Source of the DNA: Leucogyrophana mollusca
Lineage: Eukaryota > Basidiomycota > Agaricomycetes > Boletales
Assembly: GCA_021014945.1 (NCBI GenBank)
Contig: MU266693.1
Location: forward strand, 1 to 21,683
Reading direction: 5' to 3'
Length of the DNA: 21,683 bases
Position numbers and translations under genes: made by a program
The notes under the pieces: generated by a model
What the model saw: only the letters and a program-made list of their open reading frames with translations
Told to the model about the DNA's origin: nothing
Database searches by the model: none
Part shown: positions 780 through 20,204 of the stretch, piece by piece
How the letters are laid out: the number at the start of each line of letters is the position of its first letter
Position numbering within the stretch: the first letter of the stretch is position 1

Positions 780-2186
780 ATGCCCGCCACACGCTCTTCC
801 AGTAAACAGCCCTCGGCATCCGGTCCCCAGCCCCATCAATCAGCTCCGATGCCATATTCATCGCCCCGCCGCCCGCCCAGCTATGTCAAGGAAACCGCGT
901 CTCGCAAGGATGTTATTATCCTGTCCTCAGACGAAGATGAGCTAGAGCGGAAGAAAGTCAAAAAATTGAAGCCTAAGACCAAACGCACAACCGCTAAAAA
1001 ATCCGCGAAGAAGGCGGTCCCCGTGCTCGACGATGTGCTCGAAATAACCTCATCTGACGATGATCGACCAGTTCCGCCACCTAGGAAACCTGGGCCGACT
1101 CCAGGACCGAGTGGCGAGACCGAGACCGACTTGCTGAAGAATTTTAGGGATTTACAACAGGTGTGTTCGACTCCAGCCCCTTCTGTCATGTACGTGCGTT
1201 CACAATCCTCCCAAGGAACATGCCCAGCTCCAGAGGAAACTCTCTCAGCTTGATACGGAGTGTGAATTCTCAGAACGTACAATCCAGCAACTCCACCACG
1301 CCCTCGCCACACAAAGCAAGGCTACAGGGGAACTCCAGGGTGAAGTTGAACAGCTCAACACTGAGATCAGCCGTTTGAGGGGCATCGCTTGTGGCGGCCA
1401 AAAAGTTGTGAGTTTCCTCTCTTTCGCGTATCTCAATTAACGCGTTGCGTGAGCGCATTCCGTCCTGGCCGCTCGCGATAATTTCACGAGTTCTGTTGTG
1501 GTTCCGAATTTCGCTGCTGTCTCGTTGTACCTCTTCGTCACTGGACTAACGATTTTCCCTGTCGCAGGACGTTTCAAAGCTCGAAGATCACATTTCGTGT
1601 GAGGTGTGCACCCTCAAGATGTGGAGCCCCTTTATGTAAGCTCCCAACCCGCCGTTGTCCACGACAAGTGCTCATCGATGGCCCCGTCCTGCTTTGCGCG
1701 CACTCCCGACCACACCATTCCTTGTCACCTGCTACTCCGCCCACTCGAAACAGTCTCCCCGACTGCGGACATACTTTCTGCCAATCCTGTCTAACAGACT
1801 GGTTTGGCATGACTCTCGCGCAGTACACGACCCGACACCCAGCCTACAACCCCCGCGCTCCCGCCCCCGACCTCAATAGCCTTGCACAGCAAATGCTCAC
1901 CCTCTCCGGCGGGCCACTTCAACCATACGCACAAGCGTTTCTCTCCGCGTATTATCAGCAAGTCGGCGCTGGAATCAACCACAACCGGCAGGTGGGTCCA
2001 GGCCCAGAGTACTCGTGTCCGACGTGTCGGAAGGAGGTGCGGGTTAAGCCAGTGGAGGATTTCAAGCTGAAGGCGTTAGTGAGGGAGGTAGCGGGTGCGT
2101 GTGGGGAAGGGAGCCCCCGGAGGCGCGCAGATTCGTCCGCGCCGCGGGCAGGCCCGTTCGATCCCTTTTTTGTGGGAAGATCATAA
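780..2186 (+). CDS. RING-finger E3 ubiquitin ligase candidate with two SUMO-interaction-like motifs
   Basis: Four exons, 780-1160, 1216-1407, 1568-1635 and 1754-2186, join in frame to a 357-residue protein. The introns are 55, 160 and 118 nt. Residues 45-54 (VIILSSDEDE) and 86-95 (VLEITSSDDD) are hydrophobic patches followed by Ser and acids, the form of SUMO-interacting motifs. A Lys-rich stretch (about 58-79) lies between them and could be a nuclear signal. Exon 2 (128-191) is rich in Leu, Gln and Glu and probably forms a coiled coil. The RING ligands are C202, C205, C218, H220, C223, C226, C302 and C305; the third ligand region forms only after the 118-nt intron is removed. Between C226 and C302 lie 75 residues, far more than in a usual RING. 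Known RING proteins recruit E2 enzymes and promote ubiquitin transfer. SUMO-directed action is inferred from the SIM-like motifs. The ATG at 780 is the first in the frame. Confidence 0.85.
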
Positions 2187-3925: not shown

Positions 3926-5030
3926 CTTAGTGAGATGGACGAGGCTGATACGGGGGGTTTTGGTTCGTGTGTGGGATATACCGTCCGAGCCATCAATAGG
4001 AATCGACTACACGTGCTGGCGCGGCGATGGAGGTGCCTTACAAGATGAGGCTCGAGCCGAGCTATCCAGGTGATTTGTGTGAATAATAGGCACAGGTTTC
4101 GAAAACGCATCTGAGGGCAGAGTGATAAGTTCGAGGAATGTTCTGGGCGACGAACGGCCCCCTGGCTGTGGCCCCGAGGCAGATTCAGACGAATGGAGGT
4201 GCGATATCATGAGATCGTCCTTACCTCACAGCTAGGTAACTTGCAGCCAAATAAGCGTCAAAATGAGTCGTGCTGCCTCAATGTTGCCTGACGAGCTCAA
4301 TTACAGCCAAGCTGTAGTGGATCAACGTTCTAGCAGTGCCGCACAGCATCATTTTCGAAGTCTTTGTCCAATTCTCCTTCCACGCGATTCACGCTCGGCA
4401 GGCCCATGATTAACAACACTGTCCAGTCTTGGGAAGACACCGAGCCACCCCCAGGAAGAAGCGCAGTTCTGTGGATCTGGAATGTACCTACACTTTAGAC
4501 AGAGCGGAGAGGTAAGCGATAGATGAACATTCCTGCGCGGGGCCACTACATACCTGGTGGGTTGTCTATTTGCTGGACAGCATGTCGAGCGTATTACGCA
4601 GAAATGGAAGGTTGACCGTTGTGGCTTAGTCAGCGAAATTGTCCTCCGGTTGACCTGGCGAATGTTCGGAGGCCGATCCTCAGGACGATTTTCTGCCAAC
4701 CGGTGGTGCAAAGACGTTCGGCGCCCCAGGATACCTGGCCCCTTTTAATGTACTCCCTTTTCTCAGATTGACCACAAGTGCGCCAGGTTACCTCCGTATA
4801 CAATGCACCGGTCTACTTTCTTTCTATATGGCTCACGGGCTGCGGAAGATTGGAGGTCGAATCACGCGCGAAAGGCCCTCGGAGTCAACATTCAATGGTT
4901 GGTGACTGCAGCTCGTTGTCATTGATCGACCCACTTGTTTCCCGATTCCGGTGCCTGTCTTATTGGTAAGGGCTTAACCTTTCATGACTTTGTCCCTCTG
5001 GCCCTCGCTGATTCGCCATTTTCTCTCCCC
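3926..5030. other. Divergent intergenic region between membrane protein and aspartic peptidase
   Basis: About 1.1 kb separates two divergent genes. Near the left side, 4010-4210 (-) holds a Ser/Pro-rich open frame in phase with the membrane-protein gene that may be its first exon. The rest (4211-5030) has only short overlapping ORFs. An ATTGG (inverted CCAAT) sits about 70 bases upstream of the peptidase start, a position compatible with a promoter element, but this is weak evidence. Confidence 0.4.
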
Positions 5031-7062: not shown

Positions 7063-10000
7063 TCAAAGTCCTCGGACCTCAAGACATCCACGGAAGATCT
7101 TCTGGAACTGTGGGACATGATCGGAATCCATGAGCGTGTAATGTTGGCCCGGTACCTCTGTATAAGTTGGTGCATGACGGCTGAAAGCTGACCAGGGCTT
7201 GAGTTCGGAATTCAACCAGTCAGCTCTGCTTCCGGTGGGCGGGATTGCGTAAAAAACGTCGATGGCGGCTGGTATCGGTTGAGCATAACATTGGATGAAC
7301 AATTCTGGGATATACTTACAGACAGTACCAGACGGATGATAGCCCTTGCAAACCTCAATAAAGGACGACACGATACTGACCCAGTGATTCAGCTTCGCGG
7401 GTGTGAGACGTAGCTCGGCGAGACGTTCGGGGGGAGACAGCTTCCACACCGCCTTCAGCTGTTTCTCCCTCGGCATTAGCCTCAGGGTAGGCGCGAGTTG
7501 GTGGGCGTCGTCCTTGGAAATTAGCCCCAAGTAGTGCGGCAGCTTAAGCATTCCACTCGTCCAGTCAACTTCGCGCATATGATCCGCGATGTGGGGGGGT
7601 ATGTTGACGAGGCCTATGAATTTGACCTCATCGCCGAGAGCCTCCAGGGACCTCGTGATCTCGAAGGCAACGATACCGCCGGAACTGTAACCAGCGATGG
7701 CGTACGGGCCAGCAGGCTGTGTTCTCTTGATAGCAGCAACGTAGCAGGCCACCATTTCGCCCATTGAGTTGAAGACAGGCTGACCGGGCTCAAAGCCACG
7801 CGCACGAAGTGCATAGAAGGGTCGTTCGTTGTGGAAGTATTTTGCGAGATTGACGAAAACGAGAACTTCACCGATGGCGGGGTGGACGAAGAAGATTGGG
7901 GTCTTCTTTCCGGTCATCTGGAGGGGAACGATGGGGTCGTACTCTTGTTCATGGTTCCTCCTGTTGCGAATGGAGTCAACGATCCGGGCCAAGTCCGAAA
8001 TGACAGGGTGCTTCAGAATCTGAATTAAGGGGATCTCGGCAAGCCGAAAGTATGCCTCAGCCTCGTGTTTCAGCCTAAGCGATGTTGGATATCAGCGCCT
8101 AGATATCTCCCCCAGCATGGGCAGGACCGACCTGATGATATCAATAGAGGTGCCGCCTAGCTCGAATAGATTATCGTTTGCTGACACCTCACCCGATCCC
8201 ACATTGAAGATGCGGCTATAGATGGTGGCGAGAGCTTTCTCGCTGTCAGTGGAGGGCACGGCAAAAGCAGCCTGGCGAGCCGCACTGAGCAACTTCTCCG
8301 CGTGAGCGATGTGTGCCGTAAGTTCGCCCTGGTTGAATAAGGCCAGGAGACGGCTCCTTGAAAGTTTCCCAAGAGTCGACTTCTCCATCTCATTGATTGG
8401 GATGGGCACGATGTGTCGCGGCGCTAGAGTGATCATCTTCACCGAAATGTCACCAAGTTCACGGTGAGTCACCAAAAGCTTGTGCGAAGCTTCCGCATCG
8501 TAAAGATCGAATGACGGTGAGTAGAAGACGAGGAAACTTTCGGTTTCTTGATTTGGTGCACGATACGGCGCGGCAGCGAGAAAAGAGTGAGCAACCCCTT
8601 CGACGGTCTGTAGATGTGTTTCAAGTTCAGGGATCCCGTACGAGATACCGTGGACAATGAGGGTATCTTTGATGCGCCCGTTCAATCTCAGCTCACCATC
8701 TTCGATGATGCCGATGTCTCCGGTGCGAAACCATCCGCCGTCGACGAAGCTGGATGAGGTAGCATCGGGATTGTTGTAGTACCGGGTGAACAACATGGGG
8801 CCACGAACTTGAAGTTCACCACTTTCGCCATCGTGGCAAACGGTGATGCCATCATCGGGGTCGACAATACGCATCTCGCAGCTATCGATGGGACGGCCAA
8901 GACCCAAGAACTCATGCACAGATCGATGCCGTGGGACATCGACCCGGTCGTAAATGCACCCGGCGCTGGTCAATAAGATATATGTTCACCCTTGGGCTAA
9001 ACAAGGAAATCTCTGAGTACTTACCAAGTTTCTGTCATGCCAAATCCAGGACAGAGGACAAAGGAGACTCTTGAAGGGTCCCGAGCGAGTTTTTTCAGAA
9101 CCATAGTGAATGCCTGCGCAGTTTTCGTAACTACCGCCTCTCCACCACTGTTAATGCGCTTGATGGACGAGAGGTCGAATCTGCCACACATGTCGGAATC
9201 CTTCTCCAAGTCATGGGTGAGCTTGGCAAGTAAGAAATTGGGAGCAAAGGCAAGGTGGATCGACTGAAAAGTATGAGAGTTGGGTCCCACAGGAAATTAG
9301 AACAGTAGCGATCGCACACCTTTTCATCAACAAGGCGAAGGAAACAGATCGGGTCCGAAAGGATAGCAGATGCGTGTACGTGCAACTGAGATGCACCAAA
9401 TAGAAGGGGAGCCATGTGCATCTCCAAAGATCCAGCAACATGATCGAAACCGACCCCTGTTGTGAGCGTCGTTAGGACAAGTGCACGAGATACGAGGACA
9501 AGGCCCTTACAATTCAGAACGTTCGACTTCGAGGTTAAACCATAGCTGCGACCCTTGGCATAGCAGGCGGCGAGTATGGTACGGTGTGTGTGAACGACAG
9601 CTTTACAGAAGCCAGTCGAACCAGAGGTCAGGTATAGAATGGCTTCGTCATCCGGTTGGGCGTCATGCACAACCCAGTCTGCGGGGACGCGGGCGCTCTC
9701 TGCCAACGCTGAAAGCTCAGAGAACAGCCGGATTTCTAGTCCGTCTATCGAACTCAGCTGTTCAGCGCCAAAGTCGTTCGTTAGCCACGTCACTGGCGAG
9801 AAGAGGCGTTGAATATGTGCGACATGGCCATGCTGATGCACCTGCTGGGCACTAAGCGCGGGTTGCAAGCAAGGCACCAAACCAGCTAACAAACAGGTCC
9901 AGATGGCAGCCATGTTATCCTCATGCTCGGTGAGGTATACGACAATTATCGAGCCCTGAGGCTTGGCCCACTGAGAAATTGCATATGCCAGCTTGCGAAC

Positions 10001-10201
10001 ATCTTGATTGAAAGCGGAGAATGTCCTGGAACGATACGATAAATCACGGGCAGTGGGGTTGGCAAAGCTGAGGTCATGAAGAGGATATCGATCGGCGGCT
10101 TGCAGGAGGACCCTGGGCAGATTGCTTGGGATAGTTGGGCTTGGGGTGGTTTTTTCCTCTGCGTAGGCAAAGCCAACGGTGGGGACTTCAACCTGCCCCA
10201 T
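7063..10201 (-). CDS. NRPS-like synthetase, adenylation-thiolation-thioesterase (A-T-TE)
   Basis: Six exons on the minus strand, 10201-9511, 9456-9320, 9263-9025, 8965-8132, 8074-7320 and 7268-7063, give 953 residues. The A domain carries TSGSTG (192-197), NWVGFDHVAGSLEMH (230-244), INSGGEAVV (313-321), GFGMTETCAG (349-358), GWFRTGDIG and a TLGKLSR near its end with the usual Lys. The T domain has LGGTSID, with S629 as the phosphopantetheine site. The TE domain has GYSSGG with nucleophile S764 and a PGQHYTLM histidine, H928. The domain order and length match the fungal quinone/furanone synthetases (atromentin synthetase type), which activate aryl-pyruvic acids and dimerise them. The exact substrate cannot be read with confidence. 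Two introns (9510-9457, 54 nt; 7319-7269, 51 nt) are multiples of three without stops, so uncorrected ORFs read through them. No aminotransferase gene is next to it. It is divergent from a hydrophobin gene. Confidence 0.88.
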
Positions 10202-10948
10202 TACTGCCTATGCCTGAGTGAAGATTTGCGGTGGTGGGATAAAGCCTCCATATGTTGGAAGGCTGTAAACGCGGACCATGTAAGTTTTTGCATAGCTGAG
10301 ATTTTGGATGCTGTTACTAAGGGACCAAGCAGTTACTGTAACGTTATTTTGTTCCAAAGCCATATGATCGATGTCGTTACTCGTCGCCTCAATCGGTAAA
10401 AGGATTGACCGGGCTAGGTCTGGGTCCCACAGCGAAACGCCTGAGCTTGACTATTAGATAGCGTCCGAGTCGATACCCATCATTGGTTGGCACAAGAAAC
10501 CAACCATACCATTGAAGTCGCAGCTGAGCACTGAGCTTCAGAGCCCAACTTAGGTATCAATTATGAGCAATAAATAATATTGACAGCTAACTTCATTACG
10601 AACAACTTGGTCTCGCTCTCGAGCGATCATGGTCAAATCAGTTCCATGGCATACCTATTATATACGTCATTCACCTAGTTTTTAGGACTTGTAACCCAGG
10701 CCAGTCTCCGAGATCCTCTCGACGTCAATGCAGTGCCATGATCATGAGGGGGATGGCGCTTCTTCAATATTGTTTGGCAGGAGCAATATTGGTGCATTTG
10801 ATGCACCCGCAGCTGTTCAAGCGAGAGGCGCAAGCTCGGAAGTATAAAGCTCAGCTAGTGAGGGCTCTTTTGTTTGCTCTTCGAAATCTCTACTCGTCGA
10901 ATAAACCGCCGTTCTTTTCTTTCTACTACAACCGTTTTAGTAAACACC
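10202..10948. promoter_or_regulatory. Shared divergent promoter region of the synthetase and hydrophobin genes
   Basis: 747 bases separate the two start codons. A TATAAAG at 10843-10849 lies 100 bases before the hydrophobin ATG and is followed by a pyrimidine-rich run, which suits a strong basidiomycete promoter. For the synthetase side I see no clear TATA box. Short ORFs here overlap on both strands and are not supported as genes. Confidence 0.5.
10843..10849 (+). promoter_or_regulatory. TATA box of the hydrophobin gene
   Basis: TATAAAG sits 100 bases upstream of the hydrophobin start codon, with a CT-rich stretch between them (10865-10925). Both the sequence and the spacing fit a highly expressed fungal gene. 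This is a prediction from pattern only. Confidence 0.55.
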
Positions 10949-15392: not shown

Positions 15393-16502
15393 TCATGAAT
15401 GCGTAAAATTGGGCTTCCTCTTCTCTGCGAACGCTCCCATCCCTTGCAAACAGAAAACAGATGTCAGTGTAGTTCATAAAAACAGGGGTCAAAACATACC
15501 CTCTTTCTGATCATTAGTCGCGAAGAGACTATGGAAAAGCCTCCTCTCGTAGCGGAGGCCATCAGAAAGAGGCATCTCGAACGCTACAGATCGTGACTCA
15601 GACTGGTTCGGGAGAAAGCAGGAAATTCGCTTACAGGCATTGATAGCCTCCTTGCATGCGATCACAGCCACACGTCCCTTGCTTGCAATGGTCCCTGCCA
15701 TCTCAACTGCCTCTTTAACCACCACTCCTTCGCCTTCTCCCACCACACGGCTGACCACGCCCCATTGTTCAGCTTCTTGAGCGGAGAACATACGCCCGGT
15801 GAGGCAGAGTTCCATTGCGCGGGATTTTCCCACAATGCGGGTGAGGCGCTGGGAACCGCCACCACCGGGAATGATCCCGATGCTGATTTCAGGCTGGGAG
15901 AACTTGGCAGTTGGGGACGCGAGTATGATGTCACACATCAATGCGAGTTCGCAGCCACCGCCGAGCTGCTCGGGATCCTTATGAGCACTAGGGAGACGAA
16001 CCTACGATCAGGAACCTTACCGCATAACCACTGACGGCTGCGATGATGGGCTTGCGAAGCTTGGTGATGACCTCCCAGTTAGCGAGGAAATTGTTCGTAA
16101 ACGCGTCAGCGACTGTGAAAAGTCAAGATTCGCCCACGAAACCCAGCGAATACAATACCAACAGGTTTTGTCCTTCATCTCCAGGATGTCCGCACCGGCT
16201 GCAAGACCCGTTAGGCAATCATGAGAGTTATGCTCTGGTTACTCACCAGCAAAAGCTTTCTCCGATCCTGTAAGGACCATAGCACCGACACTATCGTCGG
16301 CGTCGGCTTCAACAAGGGCATCGGATATGTCCTTGAAATGGGCTGCGCTGAGGGCGTTGAGGGCCTTTGGTCGGTGGAGGGTGATCAACGCGACACCTGG
16401 GTTGGGCCGAGAAACGAGGACATTGTTGTAGCGAGCTGTAGAGAACGCTCGGAAAGAACGAGCTGCGACCAGAGACCTGCGGGCAAAAAGTATAGCGGAC
16501 AT
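15393..16502 (-). CDS. Mitochondrial enoyl-CoA hydratase (short-chain, crotonase family)
   Basis: Six exons, 16502-16247, 16198-16163, 16112-16021, 15965-15635, 15583-15500 and 15442-15393, give 282 residues, near the usual ~290. The first ~25 residues ([20 protein letters not shown]) are rich in Arg and Ser with no acids, a mitochondrial presequence. The crotonase fold is clear: [22 protein letters not shown] (oxyanion hole) and [13 protein letters not shown] with E134. [17 protein letters not shown] carries E154. The two catalytic Glu are 20 apart, as in the rat enzyme (E144, E164). It hydrates trans-2-enoyl-CoA to 3-hydroxyacyl-CoA in mitochondrial beta-oxidation and branched-chain amino acid breakdown. 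The C-terminus ([13 protein letters not shown]) matches the usual tail, FAEKR. The ATG at 16502 is chosen because the presequence begins there; an upstream in-frame ATG at 16649 would add unrelated residues. Confidence 0.95.
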
Positions 16503-16933: not shown

Positions 16934-19515
16934 TCAGAACCAGGGGAACATGCTCCTCACGATGGACTCCGTGTCAGCATCTACTTTCCTAATCCTTAGC
17001 GCAATAGCTTCAGCTTCTTCTTTGGCCATGATGTCATTCTTCGTAAGGAAGTTCACGATGCCCTTGGTCGAGTGGCGGGGGGGACGTATGTGGATTGACT
17101 CCAGCAAGTCCAGCAGCTTTCGGGCGATTGTCGCGGTCCACGCAGCGCTTTCCATAATGAAAGGAGCGCCATGTCCATGCTCTCGTAGCAGGTCGTGCAC
17201 CTTCTCTTTCGACTCTTCATATTTCTGCTGGTGGCCAACGTCGACTTCCTGGAGCTGAATCGCCCCATCTTCTCCCCCCGCTCTTTTACGCGTTATCCCA
17301 GGTTTTGTAGTGATGCATGCATGCGCCACCGATCGAATTCCATACTTCTCCAATACGTGGTGATTATCCTCCCACCACTTCTCCATCGGTGTAGTATATT
17401 CGAGGTTCGTGATGGCGACTACGACGGGCACCTTTTTGTCGCACAGGAAGTCACAGAAAAGTGCATAGTTCTGTCGTGCGTTATCCGTGATTCTGCCACC
17501 CCGCATGCAAAAGACCAGCAGGTGGATCCCTCCTGCGGCTCTCAAAGATGTGACCAGACGGTACGCTTTATCAATGGAGTCGAGGTAACGCTTGCCGTGC
17601 CCAAATTCCTGCGGCTCGTTCAGACCCACAGTATCGAAGATGCGATAAACGTGCGAGTCCATACGAACGTCGTAGTCTCGAACGTCGAGAGTGCAAGCAA
17701 AGCTACCCGATGATGTCTGCGCGACGTCCGAGCCCACTATCAAGTTGACGAGAGATGATTTCCCCACGCCAGCTTCCCCGAAGATCACGATGTTTCGTGA
17801 ACCGAGGGTCTCGTTGTCCACCGTCACGCCGCGAACCTAAACTCAACACTTGTAAGTCGGTACATTCCGGCTTGACCGTAAAACCTACGAACGTGAGGCT
17901 GATCTATAAGTGGGGGAGGCTCTCGCACTCGAGAGATGCTCGGGTCTCCGATTCCTGCACTGGACGTTGGTGGCACCTGAGAACTTTCAGCGGCTGCCGG
18001 GTACCCGTGGTTAGCATAGGAGTGAGAGGAAAGCCACTGGCGACCAACCTCCCACATTCTCAGCGGTGTGACGCGTACTTGACGGATCATTCAACAATGG
18101 CGCTCGAAGGCGAGAAAGGAGGTCTCCGTCCCAATCACTAGTGGACTCTTCACGTTCGGGAGCGTTCTGATGCGATACCAGCGCATGCACAACATCACTG
18201 GTTGCGGGACGCGACGCAGGGTCCATCTGCCAGCATCGATTAATCAGATCCCACATCGAATCGTCAAGATCATGATTCGTCGGCCGCGGCGGTCGACGGT
18301 CTTCCATAACGACCAGAATGGTTTGAAAGGCAGATAGCTCAGAGAAACGCGGGCGTCCAGCATATATCTATGATACTGTGAGCGGTGATTAAGAAGTGAG
18401 CGAGTCAGCTAACGAACCTCGTAGCACACGCAAGCAAACGCGTAAACGTCACTAGCCAAAGTTTTGTGTTCGTTTTCCTGTCCGACTTCTTGGTACCTCA
18501 GCAACTCGGGAGCCATCCACCGCAGAGCCGCATTCCTATTTGCTCCGGCAGTAAGTTCCGACTTGACGCTGGAGACGTGAGCTGGTATACAAAAGCTGAA
18601 TCCCGTGATGCACGCTCTAAAAGATGACGTGACGAGGACGTTGGCCTAGGAATCATTCAATATCAAGTGCATGTCATTTAACTGATTACTGACACCTTTC
18701 AGGTTTCCGTGGATGATCGAGGGGTCGAAGGTGTGGAGGTATTCGAGGCCTCGAGCCACATCTAGCACCTAAGCGGGCCGTGAGTAATCGTACGAAGGCG
18801 CAGTTCCTGTGCGAGTGCCGCGCACCAGAGACCGACGATCCCCTTGAGGGTTGCTTTCGAGATACTGTAGTATATTCCCATTAACCATCCACGGCGAAAC
18901 GAGACATGGCCGAGGATGGTTTTCGGGCCACTGGAACACGCCATAGAAAGGTAGCACTCGCGGATTCGAGAATTGCCTCCACAATACTGCTTGTTTGGAA
19001 AGCACCTATCCGATTGAAGGTCTTGGACTTGGAGCGGGTGAAAGATAAACCTAAGGGACGTACTTTTGTTTCATCGGCAGAGATGTTTCGGGCGACTTTA
19101 ATAGCGATGGCATGACCGCCCACCTTGCCTTGCCAGATGTCCCCGAAATGACCGCCCGCTACTTGTCCTTCAAACTGCACGCCTTTGATATCGAGGCAAT
19201 GAGGGTGAATATCGTGGCTTTGAGACAAATCAATAGCGGCCATTATAATCGTCGAACGGATAGCCCCGAGATCGGGGAGATCAAGAACCTGAGGGGTAGG
19301 AACATCAGGACTTGAGAACGGAGATGCCAACATATAAGCTGTACCGCTTGGAGGAGATCGATCAAAGCCTGAGCTTTCTGTTTTCGTTGGTTCAAAAACA
19401 GCTGCCGCTGCGGTGGGTCGTTGAGAACAACCAGAATCCGAGCCGCGATGCATAGTCTGTCGAGTTTCAGGAGCTTCTCGAGGCGAAGCACGGCAATGTG
19501 ATCATAGGAATGCCT
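16934..19515 (-). CDS. TKL-type pseudokinase fused to an AIG1/GIMAP-like GTPase
   Basis: Exons 19515-19345, 19288-19064, 19005-18826, 18768-18694, 18645-18418, 18367-18049, 17993-17893 and 17836-16934 join in frame. Residues below count from 20204. A helical segment (195-290) with AQALIDLLQA and IHPHCLDIKGV precedes a kinase fold as in Agaricomycete TKL kinases: GGHFGDIW, K315 in AIKVAR, HGNLKGANVLV, RWMAPELL, CWQMDPASRPA. Three catalytic positions are changed: alpha-C Glu to Q331, catalytic Asp to N408 and DFG to G426-F-S. A Ser/Pro linker (about 585-625) leads into the GTPase: GEAGVGKSS (647-655), DTVGL from 695 and TNLE (770-773) in place of NKxD. The GTPase part has no ATG in its own frame; the 56-nt intron 17892-17837 joins it to the linker. 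GIMAP-type GTPases act in immune and membrane signalling, so a switch scaffolded by a dead kinase is inferred. No in-frame ATG lies before the kinase fold except M267, so the true start is probably further upstream. Confidence 0.75.
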
Positions 19516-20204
19516 CTATTCTGTCTTCAATGCTAATCCCCAGGATTTTCTATCCGAGCTTGCCTTTTTGCACCGATTGAAAGAGCCCCAGATCGTGTCG
19601 TTGATCGAGTGATAGTGCACGAACTGAGAGACCTCGTCGACACTCAACCACTTCGAAAACTTTCCTTTGAGAGACTCGAGCGCTCTGAAAGGCGCGATGA
19701 TTTAGGATCTACGCTATCGAAATCGTAATAGCGCACCTAGGACTGTCCGTGCATAATTTCAGATGTGCCAGGGTATACAAGAAGAAGCGCTAGAAAACTA
19801 TCCATCAGTTGTCGACTGTGAGCGGAGAAGTACATCACTGGACTGACGGGACACAATAGAGAGTCAAATCCTGCGTATTCATCTTCCGAAAGCTGCGAAA
19901 AGTCTTTCGTCGCCGTACGGATCCCGCTGGCATTTGCATGAAGCCAGTCAGAGGGTGCATCAATCAAGGTTATTGAAGTTTCGAGACCCCCCAGAGCATT
20001 ACCAAAGCGTGAAATCATGATATCTGTCCCCATCGCAAAGATGAATGAGAACCAATGTTCCCCGGTGCATCCACCGTACTTGCACCGATTGGGCGCCTCT
20101 TCAAAGGCGCTCAGGGGTCCGGCCCGACATCTGTTCGTGGCATGCACAATACTGTCAAGTATAGAACGGCGTGTATCGTCGATGAGCCTCGCTTTGTCAA
20201 ACTC
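19516..20204 (-). CDS. N-terminal part of the pseudokinase-GTPase gene, or a separate unrecognised gene (5' end unresolved)
   Basis: Exon 20204-19744 joins through a 59-nt intron to 19684-19564. The frame then runs on to a TAG at 19518-19516. The intron 19563-19516 would have a GC donor (AAG before GCAAGC) and its last three bases are that TAG. Removing these 48 nt keeps the frame and leads directly into the kinase exons, so one polypeptide is my preferred model. If the intron is not real, this is a separate gene whose encoded C-terminus is ALKTE. The sequence has CKYGGC, LETSITLIDAPSDWL, YAGFDSLLCPVSPVMY and FLALLLVYPGTSE, with strong codon-like composition, but I recognise no family. A possible first exon is 20315-20289 (ATG, nine codons, 84-nt intron), which is a weak guess. 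The donor at 19743 (GTCCTA) is also weak. Confidence 0.5.

Follow-up and report, generated by a model that had tools for sequence, protein, structure and literature searches.

Gene structure at the locus

We analyzed a 21,683-nt stretch of contig MU266693.1 from the Boletales fungus Leucogyrophana mollusca (hereafter, the window), in which one gene is predicted to encode a helical N-terminal domain, a pseudokinase, and a GIMAP-like GTPase in a single protein. The spliced model lies on the minus strand, with its ATG at 20033 and its stop codon at 16934, and comprises 11 exons encoding 853 aa free of internal stops. Its features are listed below.

16934..20033, minus strand: whole gene, 11 exons, 853-aa predicted protein (stop-free spliced model; deposited protein P0121 97% identical over 100%)
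19220..20033, minus strand: N-terminal helical domain, residues 1-200 (exons 20033-19848, 19789-19737, 19684-19564, 19515-19345, and the start of 19288-19064)
19516..19563, minus strand: GC-AG intron, GCAAGC...GAATAG, in our own model (P0121 lacks 23 residues here)
18179..19177, minus strand: pseudokinase domain, residues 215-476 (exons 19288-19064, 19005-18826, 18768-18694, 18645-18418, and 18367-18049; PF07714)
18703..18705, minus strand: AAC codon, Asn334 at the position of the HxD catalytic Asp, HGN (sequence and alignment)
18601..18603, minus strand: GGA codon, Gly352 at the position of the DFG Asp, TGFSF (sequence and alignment)
17994..18048, minus strand: intron A, 55 nt, phase 1, TGCTAAC branch site (identical junction in P0121)
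17893..17993, minus strand: Ser/Pro-rich linker exon (spliced model; linker conserved with P0122)
17837..17892, minus strand: intron B, 56 nt, phase 0 (donor GTTCGTAG also present in the second L. mollusca gene, C196)
16937..17836, minus strand: GIMAP-like GTPase exon, with P-loop GEAGVGKS, G3 DTVGLNEP, and TNLE at G4 (Pfam, alignment, and fold)

Elsewhere in the window, positions 7063-10207 (minus strand) carry consecutive AMP-binding (56.1 bits), weak PP-binding (20.0 bits; cut-off 20.8), and thioesterase (100.1 bits) matches, which we take to resemble an A-T-TE synthetase of the atromentin type. An enoyl-CoA hydratase/isomerase stretch (15489-16001, minus strand; ECH_1, 126.2 bits) lies downstream of the GTPase, and 1482-2186 (plus strand) matches zf-RING_UBOX at 25.7 bits (cut-off 25.2), a RING-type zinc finger.

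A first-pass annotation had placed the gene at 16934..18645; those coordinates do belong to it but cover only part, as the kinase N-lobe and the helical N-terminal domain extend to the ATG at 20033. The two introns that it had proposed, 18048-17994 (phase 1, with TGCTAAC) and 17892-17837 (phase 0), were recovered exactly. Intron A reads GTTGGT...CCCGGCAG, including TGCTAAC, and intron B runs from GTTCGTAG to GAGTTTAG. Both junctions are shared by P0121, the L. mollusca protein deposited on the window contig (830 aa), which has identical residues across introns A and B. By count, an alternative intron (18055-17977) would also keep the frame, so the exact ends of intron A are assigned from the branch site and the deposited model. 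The single difference between P0121 and our model is the 23 residues missing from P0121; these are kept in P0122 and have counterparts in P0123 in the alignment, and a probable GC-AG intron (19563-19516) accounts for them in our model.

The linker exon contains stops in both other frames, and the joined frame is open. P0122, from Hygrophoropsis aurantiaca (Boletales), is 54% identical to the window protein over 99%, linker included. From the kinase end to the P-loop, the two linkers aligned with a local score of 83 (shuffle mean 28.3, sd 5.5), a value reached by 0 of 5000 shuffles, and matching residues surround each junction: ENVG upstream of intron A, H upstream of intron B, and VR downstream of intron B. 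The GTPase exon begins GTT CGC GGC GTG, with the P-loop at residue 20 and the first Met at residue 59; with no Met before the P-loop, the earlier view that the GTPase is not a separate ATG-started gene stood. So did the proposal that kinase and GTPase form one polypeptide, since the two introns likewise join the parts in deposited P0121 and the P0122 linker is conserved (splicing being predicted): kinase C-lobe, linker, and GTPase were confirmed as one frame and one predicted protein.

The locus could also be read as two genes, with the kinase stopping inside intron A and the GTPase translated from an upstream ATG through unspliced intron A. Such a frame is indeed open (MIRQ or MWEV start), and at another L. 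mollusca locus, C339, the deposited kinase (P0170) ends before the neighbouring GTPase. However, P0121, P0122, and P0171 are deposited as fusions, the linker residues of the spliced frame are conserved on both sides, and no ATG precedes the P-loop in the GTPase exon. We rejected the two-gene reading, which appears hardly tenable, on these three fusions and the linker conservation.

Domain composition

The N-terminal domain is conserved within the kinase family (C196, C339, P0122, and P0123) and is helical in the predicted structure of P0122, with low confidence over the first ~70 residues. It returned no Pfam match (E 0.01) and no PDB sequence match (E 1), and its fold was unmatched in the structure search, where the fold lists were filled by kinase domains.

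A domain search of the joined protein, which the first-pass annotation had suggested as a check, returned the kinase domain. This domain is complete (PF07714, 126.5 bits, E 1.5e-36; cut-off 23.1), in line with TKL-type membership as far as the domain goes, and the GTPase exon by itself matches MMR_HSR1 (42 bits). The catalytic HxD and DFG aspartates of TKL-type kinases are absent, with HGN and TGF in their places. Because both aspartates are missing, we classed the domain as a pseudokinase; the earlier description of the kinase as dead agrees with these motifs (HxD to HGN, DFG Asp to Gly), and the domain is predicted to be without activity. HGN and xGF occur alike in the window protein, P0122, and C196, each with a complete kinase domain. 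The VAIK lysine and the Asn following HGN are kept in the alignment, and the pseudokinase may therefore still bind nucleotide.

In the GTPase, the P-loop (GEAGVGKS) and G3 (DTVG) are near-invariant across 40 GTPases, as befits GIMAP/AIG1 proteins. The Pfam AIG1 score lies around the cut-off of 27 bits (exon alone 27.8, whole model 25.1, P0121 25.4, P0122 20.3). G4 is TxLE, mostly TNLE or THLE, in nearly all of the 40 rows and NKxD in none, making the guanine specificity of the domain uncertain. The best fold matches of the GTPase structure model were GIMAP2, GIMAP7, GIMAP5, and Toc34, which points to a GIMAP fold, and the model places helices at the C-terminus; a coiled coil beside the AIG1 domain is named as a mark of GIMAP/AIG1 proteins in the available text of PMC7053062. 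The structure predictions used hand-picked inputs of 40 and 51 rows, and the whole-protein model of P0122 has a pTM of 0.58, from which packing between domains is not readable. The window GTPase shares its predicted fold, P-loop, and DTxG with animal and plant GIMAP/AIG1 GTPases, but differs from them in its TxLE G4, in its borderline AIG1 match, and in sitting behind a kinase-like domain.

Related proteins and two losses of the catalytic aspartates

We found at least 11 deposited proteins that contain a kinase and a GTPase (P0121, P0122, P0123, P0124, P0144, P0171, P0172, P0174, P0177, P0191, and P0193). P0121-P0124 and P0144 were among 55 matches and the other six among 120 listed of 126; both protein searches scored only candidates sharing most words, so that 11 is a lower bound. 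They are deposited for Boletales and Agaricales, the orders to which the Suillus, Mycena, and Coprinopsis carriers belong. A search for the same domain order in other Agaricomycetes, also suggested earlier, was fruitful: P0122 of H. aurantiaca has the whole layout, and further kinase–GTPase proteins are deposited. The statement that no kinase–GIMAP GTPase fusion had been described did not survive this search, and the available text of PMC7053062 also mentions the pairing in passing. The earlier interpretation therefore held for the fusion and the dead kinase, but not for the undescribed status of the pairing.

What seems new is the distribution of the dead kinases. The catalytic loop is HGN in three of the 11 proteins (P0121, P0122, and P0171) and HGD in eight (both kinases of P0124 counted; the first of these has also lost the DFG Asp). 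Among these at least 11 proteins, HGN occurs only together with the GTPase clade of the window, that is, in the window gene, H. aurantiaca, and the second L. mollusca gene, C196, and judging by the kinase tree it was reached by two losses. The eight others keep HGD, including Suillus P0144, with a GTPase 36% identical to that of the window; the presence of a GTPase alone thus does not imply a dead kinase.

C196 has the same kinase–GTPase layout, and our 870-aa model of it is 99.3% identical to deposited P0171, with 6 gap positions. In a kinase tree with HxD and DFG masked, C196 was sister to C339, which retains HGD and DFG (100/99), and the window kinase was sister to P0122 (98/95). A single clade of the three dead kinases was rejected (p-AU 6e-45; 19 hand-picked rows). 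Because the C196 kinase is sister to the HGD/DFG kinase of C339, the C196 and window kinases would, judging by the tree, have lost their catalytic aspartates separately, in two events. Gene conversion seems an unlikely source of HGN in C196, whose flanking codons follow C339, not the window, in a codon comparison.

In the GTPase tree (48 hand-picked rows), by contrast with the kinase tree, the window, P0122, and C196 form one clade of five with P0001 and P0026 (100/99). The sister of the C196 GTPase is P0001, which is deposited without a kinase. Taken together, the two trees place one GTPase type behind two different kinases, both of which lack the two aspartates. Several other groupings of the window, P0122, and C196 GTPases were rejected by AU tests: with C339, as one origin of all fused or adjacent GTPases would have it (p 4e-52), with Suillus P0144 (p 7e-7), and by themselves without P0001 and P0026 (p 3e-4). 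With C339 counted as fused, the fused state needs a minimum of 4 changes on the 48-row tree. The trees were built from hand-picked sets of 48, 16, and 19 rows, with source pools of 164, 55, and 126 matches listed in part, and the AU tests were performed after the trees had been inspected. By sequence reading, P0001 and P0026 appear to be tandem GTPases, with a DTPG-type part in front, then a window-clade GTPase, and no kinase.

The retained VAIK lysine and the Asn after HGN would also suit a kinase that is unconventional yet active despite HGN and GFS. We consider this improbable, as the catalytic and metal-binding aspartates are gone, twice independently, in each of the three deposited carriers of this GTPase clade that we found.

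Kinase and GTPase loci in the L. mollusca genome

A survey of the same genome covered 32 kinase loci besides the window, drawn from the stronger matches. At 29 of them the catalytic loop could be read: HGD at 27, HGN in C196, and HRN in the decayed copy C252; C336b, C196b, and C414 gave no match. For the activation segment, 23 of the 32 gave a match: the DFG Asp is present in 21 and lost in two, C196 and the HGD locus C116b. Some contigs of the 27 HGD loci carry kinases fused to other domains, such as P0172 on C77. Two loci, L049 (C316) and L050 (C336), have equal match scores and the same catalytic-loop letters, and C316a and C336a may be one region assembled twice.

If two HxD losses fell at random over 29 loci (27 HGD, the window, and C196), exactly these two would be hit 1 time in 406, by post hoc arithmetic. 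The apparent link between dead kinase and GTPase clade is based on two independent events and, like this calculation, was drawn post hoc.

The 27 HGD loci are candidate live partners for the dead kinase, which could act as the allosteric partner of a live paralogous family kinase, the GTPase only timing their meeting. C339 falls in the kinase clade of C196. Nothing, however, ties the window gene to any single paralog, and we regard this explanation as unlikely.

C252 and C414 had been considered as GTPase-free paralogs, and were set aside because both are decayed partial copies of the window gene (L042 on C252, 87% DNA identity; L041 on C414, 84%). In C252, the alignment ends inside intron B, with 5 frameshifting indels over exons 1-10. 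Decay of these copies could suggest that the window gene is itself decaying, its kinase losses being drift and the fusion functionless. This is very improbable, as the window copy is stop-free over 853 codons and in the H. aurantiaca ortholog every part, the linker, and the same motif losses are preserved.

The genome contains ~21 GTPase loci (24 exon-level matches grouped, two short partial ones aside). In stretches fetched around them, a kinase lies just upstream on the same strand only in C196 and C339 besides the window. The DNA of C196 and C339 is 84% identical over C339 2057-4632, and the alignment resumes over 4617-4712; in C196, ~1,150 bases (linker end, intron B, and GTPase) sit between these alignable C339-like blocks, as if the GTPase had moved as a cassette. 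The GTPase downstream of C339 groups instead with P0088 and P0091, both deposited without a kinase (99/89), and has its own Met before the P-loop. C339 was not accepted as a third proven fusion: its model is open over 856 aa, but deposited P0170 ends before the GTPase, and C339 may be two genes.

These observations raise the rather doubtful idea that one GTPase cassette, consisting of intron B, the GTPase exon, and the end of the linker, entered two different genes of this modular kinase family, each of which then lost both aspartates, giving convergent GTPase-driven pseudokinase receptors. If true, captured-cassette pseudokinases would be a fungal counterpart of modular innate-immune sensors.

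Possible function

Pseudokinases commonly serve as scaffolds or allosteric partners, and GIMAP and Toc34 GTPases form dimers through their nucleotide-binding faces. The reading we lean towards, with a confidence somewhat short of even, is a GTP-steered pseudokinase scaffold belonging to a modular kinase family, in which a nucleotide-driven switch would let the GTPases pair and the kinase and N-terminal parts would form a docking platform. The GTPase likely took over as the working switch, because a second gene with the same pairing lost its aspartates separately. By analogy with GIMAP and Toc34, the GTP-bound GTPase domains would pair; pairing would gather the pseudokinase and N-terminal domains into the platform; and the partners docking there would perhaps be paralogs from the same genome whose kinase motifs are intact.

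A cytoplasmic NLR-like recognition receptor, in which module swaps alter what is sensed, seems quite unlikely. In deposited proteins, related kinases do occur with other regions attached (WD40, zinc finger, patatin, or a DTPG-type GTPase at either terminus), and C196 and C339 share a kinase yet adjoin different GTPases. On the other hand, in the Pfam search of the window protein, NACHT reached 12.5 bits (cut-off 26.7), NB-ARC was absent from the domain listing, and no sensor repeats were listed; some of the deposited joins may also be faulty gene models. The joins in question include those of P0173, P0174, P0175, and P0198, where the kinases adjoin regions of the C2H2 zinc finger, WD40, or patatin type or an N-terminal DTPG GTPase; these represent either a modular family or, in some cases, faulty models.

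This genome offers a useful setting: its kinases of this family include members that have the catalytic aspartates and members that lack them, a GTPase is attached to some, and one can ask whether gaining a GTPase makes kinase activity dispensable.

Comparison with known systems

The nearest relatives in layout are Agaricomycete proteins in which a related kinase is followed by a DTPG-type GTPase, as in the window protein: P0193 of Coprinopsis cinerea ("TKL/TKL-ccin"), P0172 of L. mollusca, P0177 of Mycena floridula, and P0123 of Tephrocybe rancida. The N-terminal domain is common to P0123 and, by eye, to P0172 and P0177. This group differs in that HGD and DFG are intact and the GTPase has DTPGFD, with 23-29% identity to that of the window over short alignments. 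Our literature search found no functional work on Agaricomycete kinase–GTPase proteins and no description of a dead kinase with the window GTPase clade, reached twice. "TKL-ccin" kinases are listed in expression tables or text (PMC10890143, PMC4082614), where the available portions leave the GTPase unmentioned.

Among better-known proteins, MLKL resembles the window protein in having a helical N-terminal part, in MLKL a four-helix bundle, followed by a pseudokinase; its pseudokinase ranked 23 in Foldseek, among many tyrosine kinases, and to our knowledge MLKL has no GTPase. LRRK2/ROCO proteins also unite kinase and GTPase in one protein, with the domain order reversed relative to the window protein, in which the Pfam Roc domain reached only 17.4-19.9 bits (cut-off 27).

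Proteins combining kinase and AIG1 domains appear in the available text of PMC7053062, in connection with Biomphalaria glabrata, Atlantic salmon, or fungi; by that description, the B. glabrata kinase domain is N-terminal of AIG1, as in the window protein. AIG1–Hint proteins of Glomeromycotina, compared likewise by the description in the accessible part of PMC8778642, join a fungal AIG1-type GTPase to another domain, but this is Hint, not a kinase. Fungal AIG1 proteins as such are thus already known from that source; here, a GIMAP-fold GTPase, of a class tied to animal and plant immunity, would form part of a fungal signalling-type protein. An expanded TKL group has been reported in Laccaria, according to the available text of PMC2838846.
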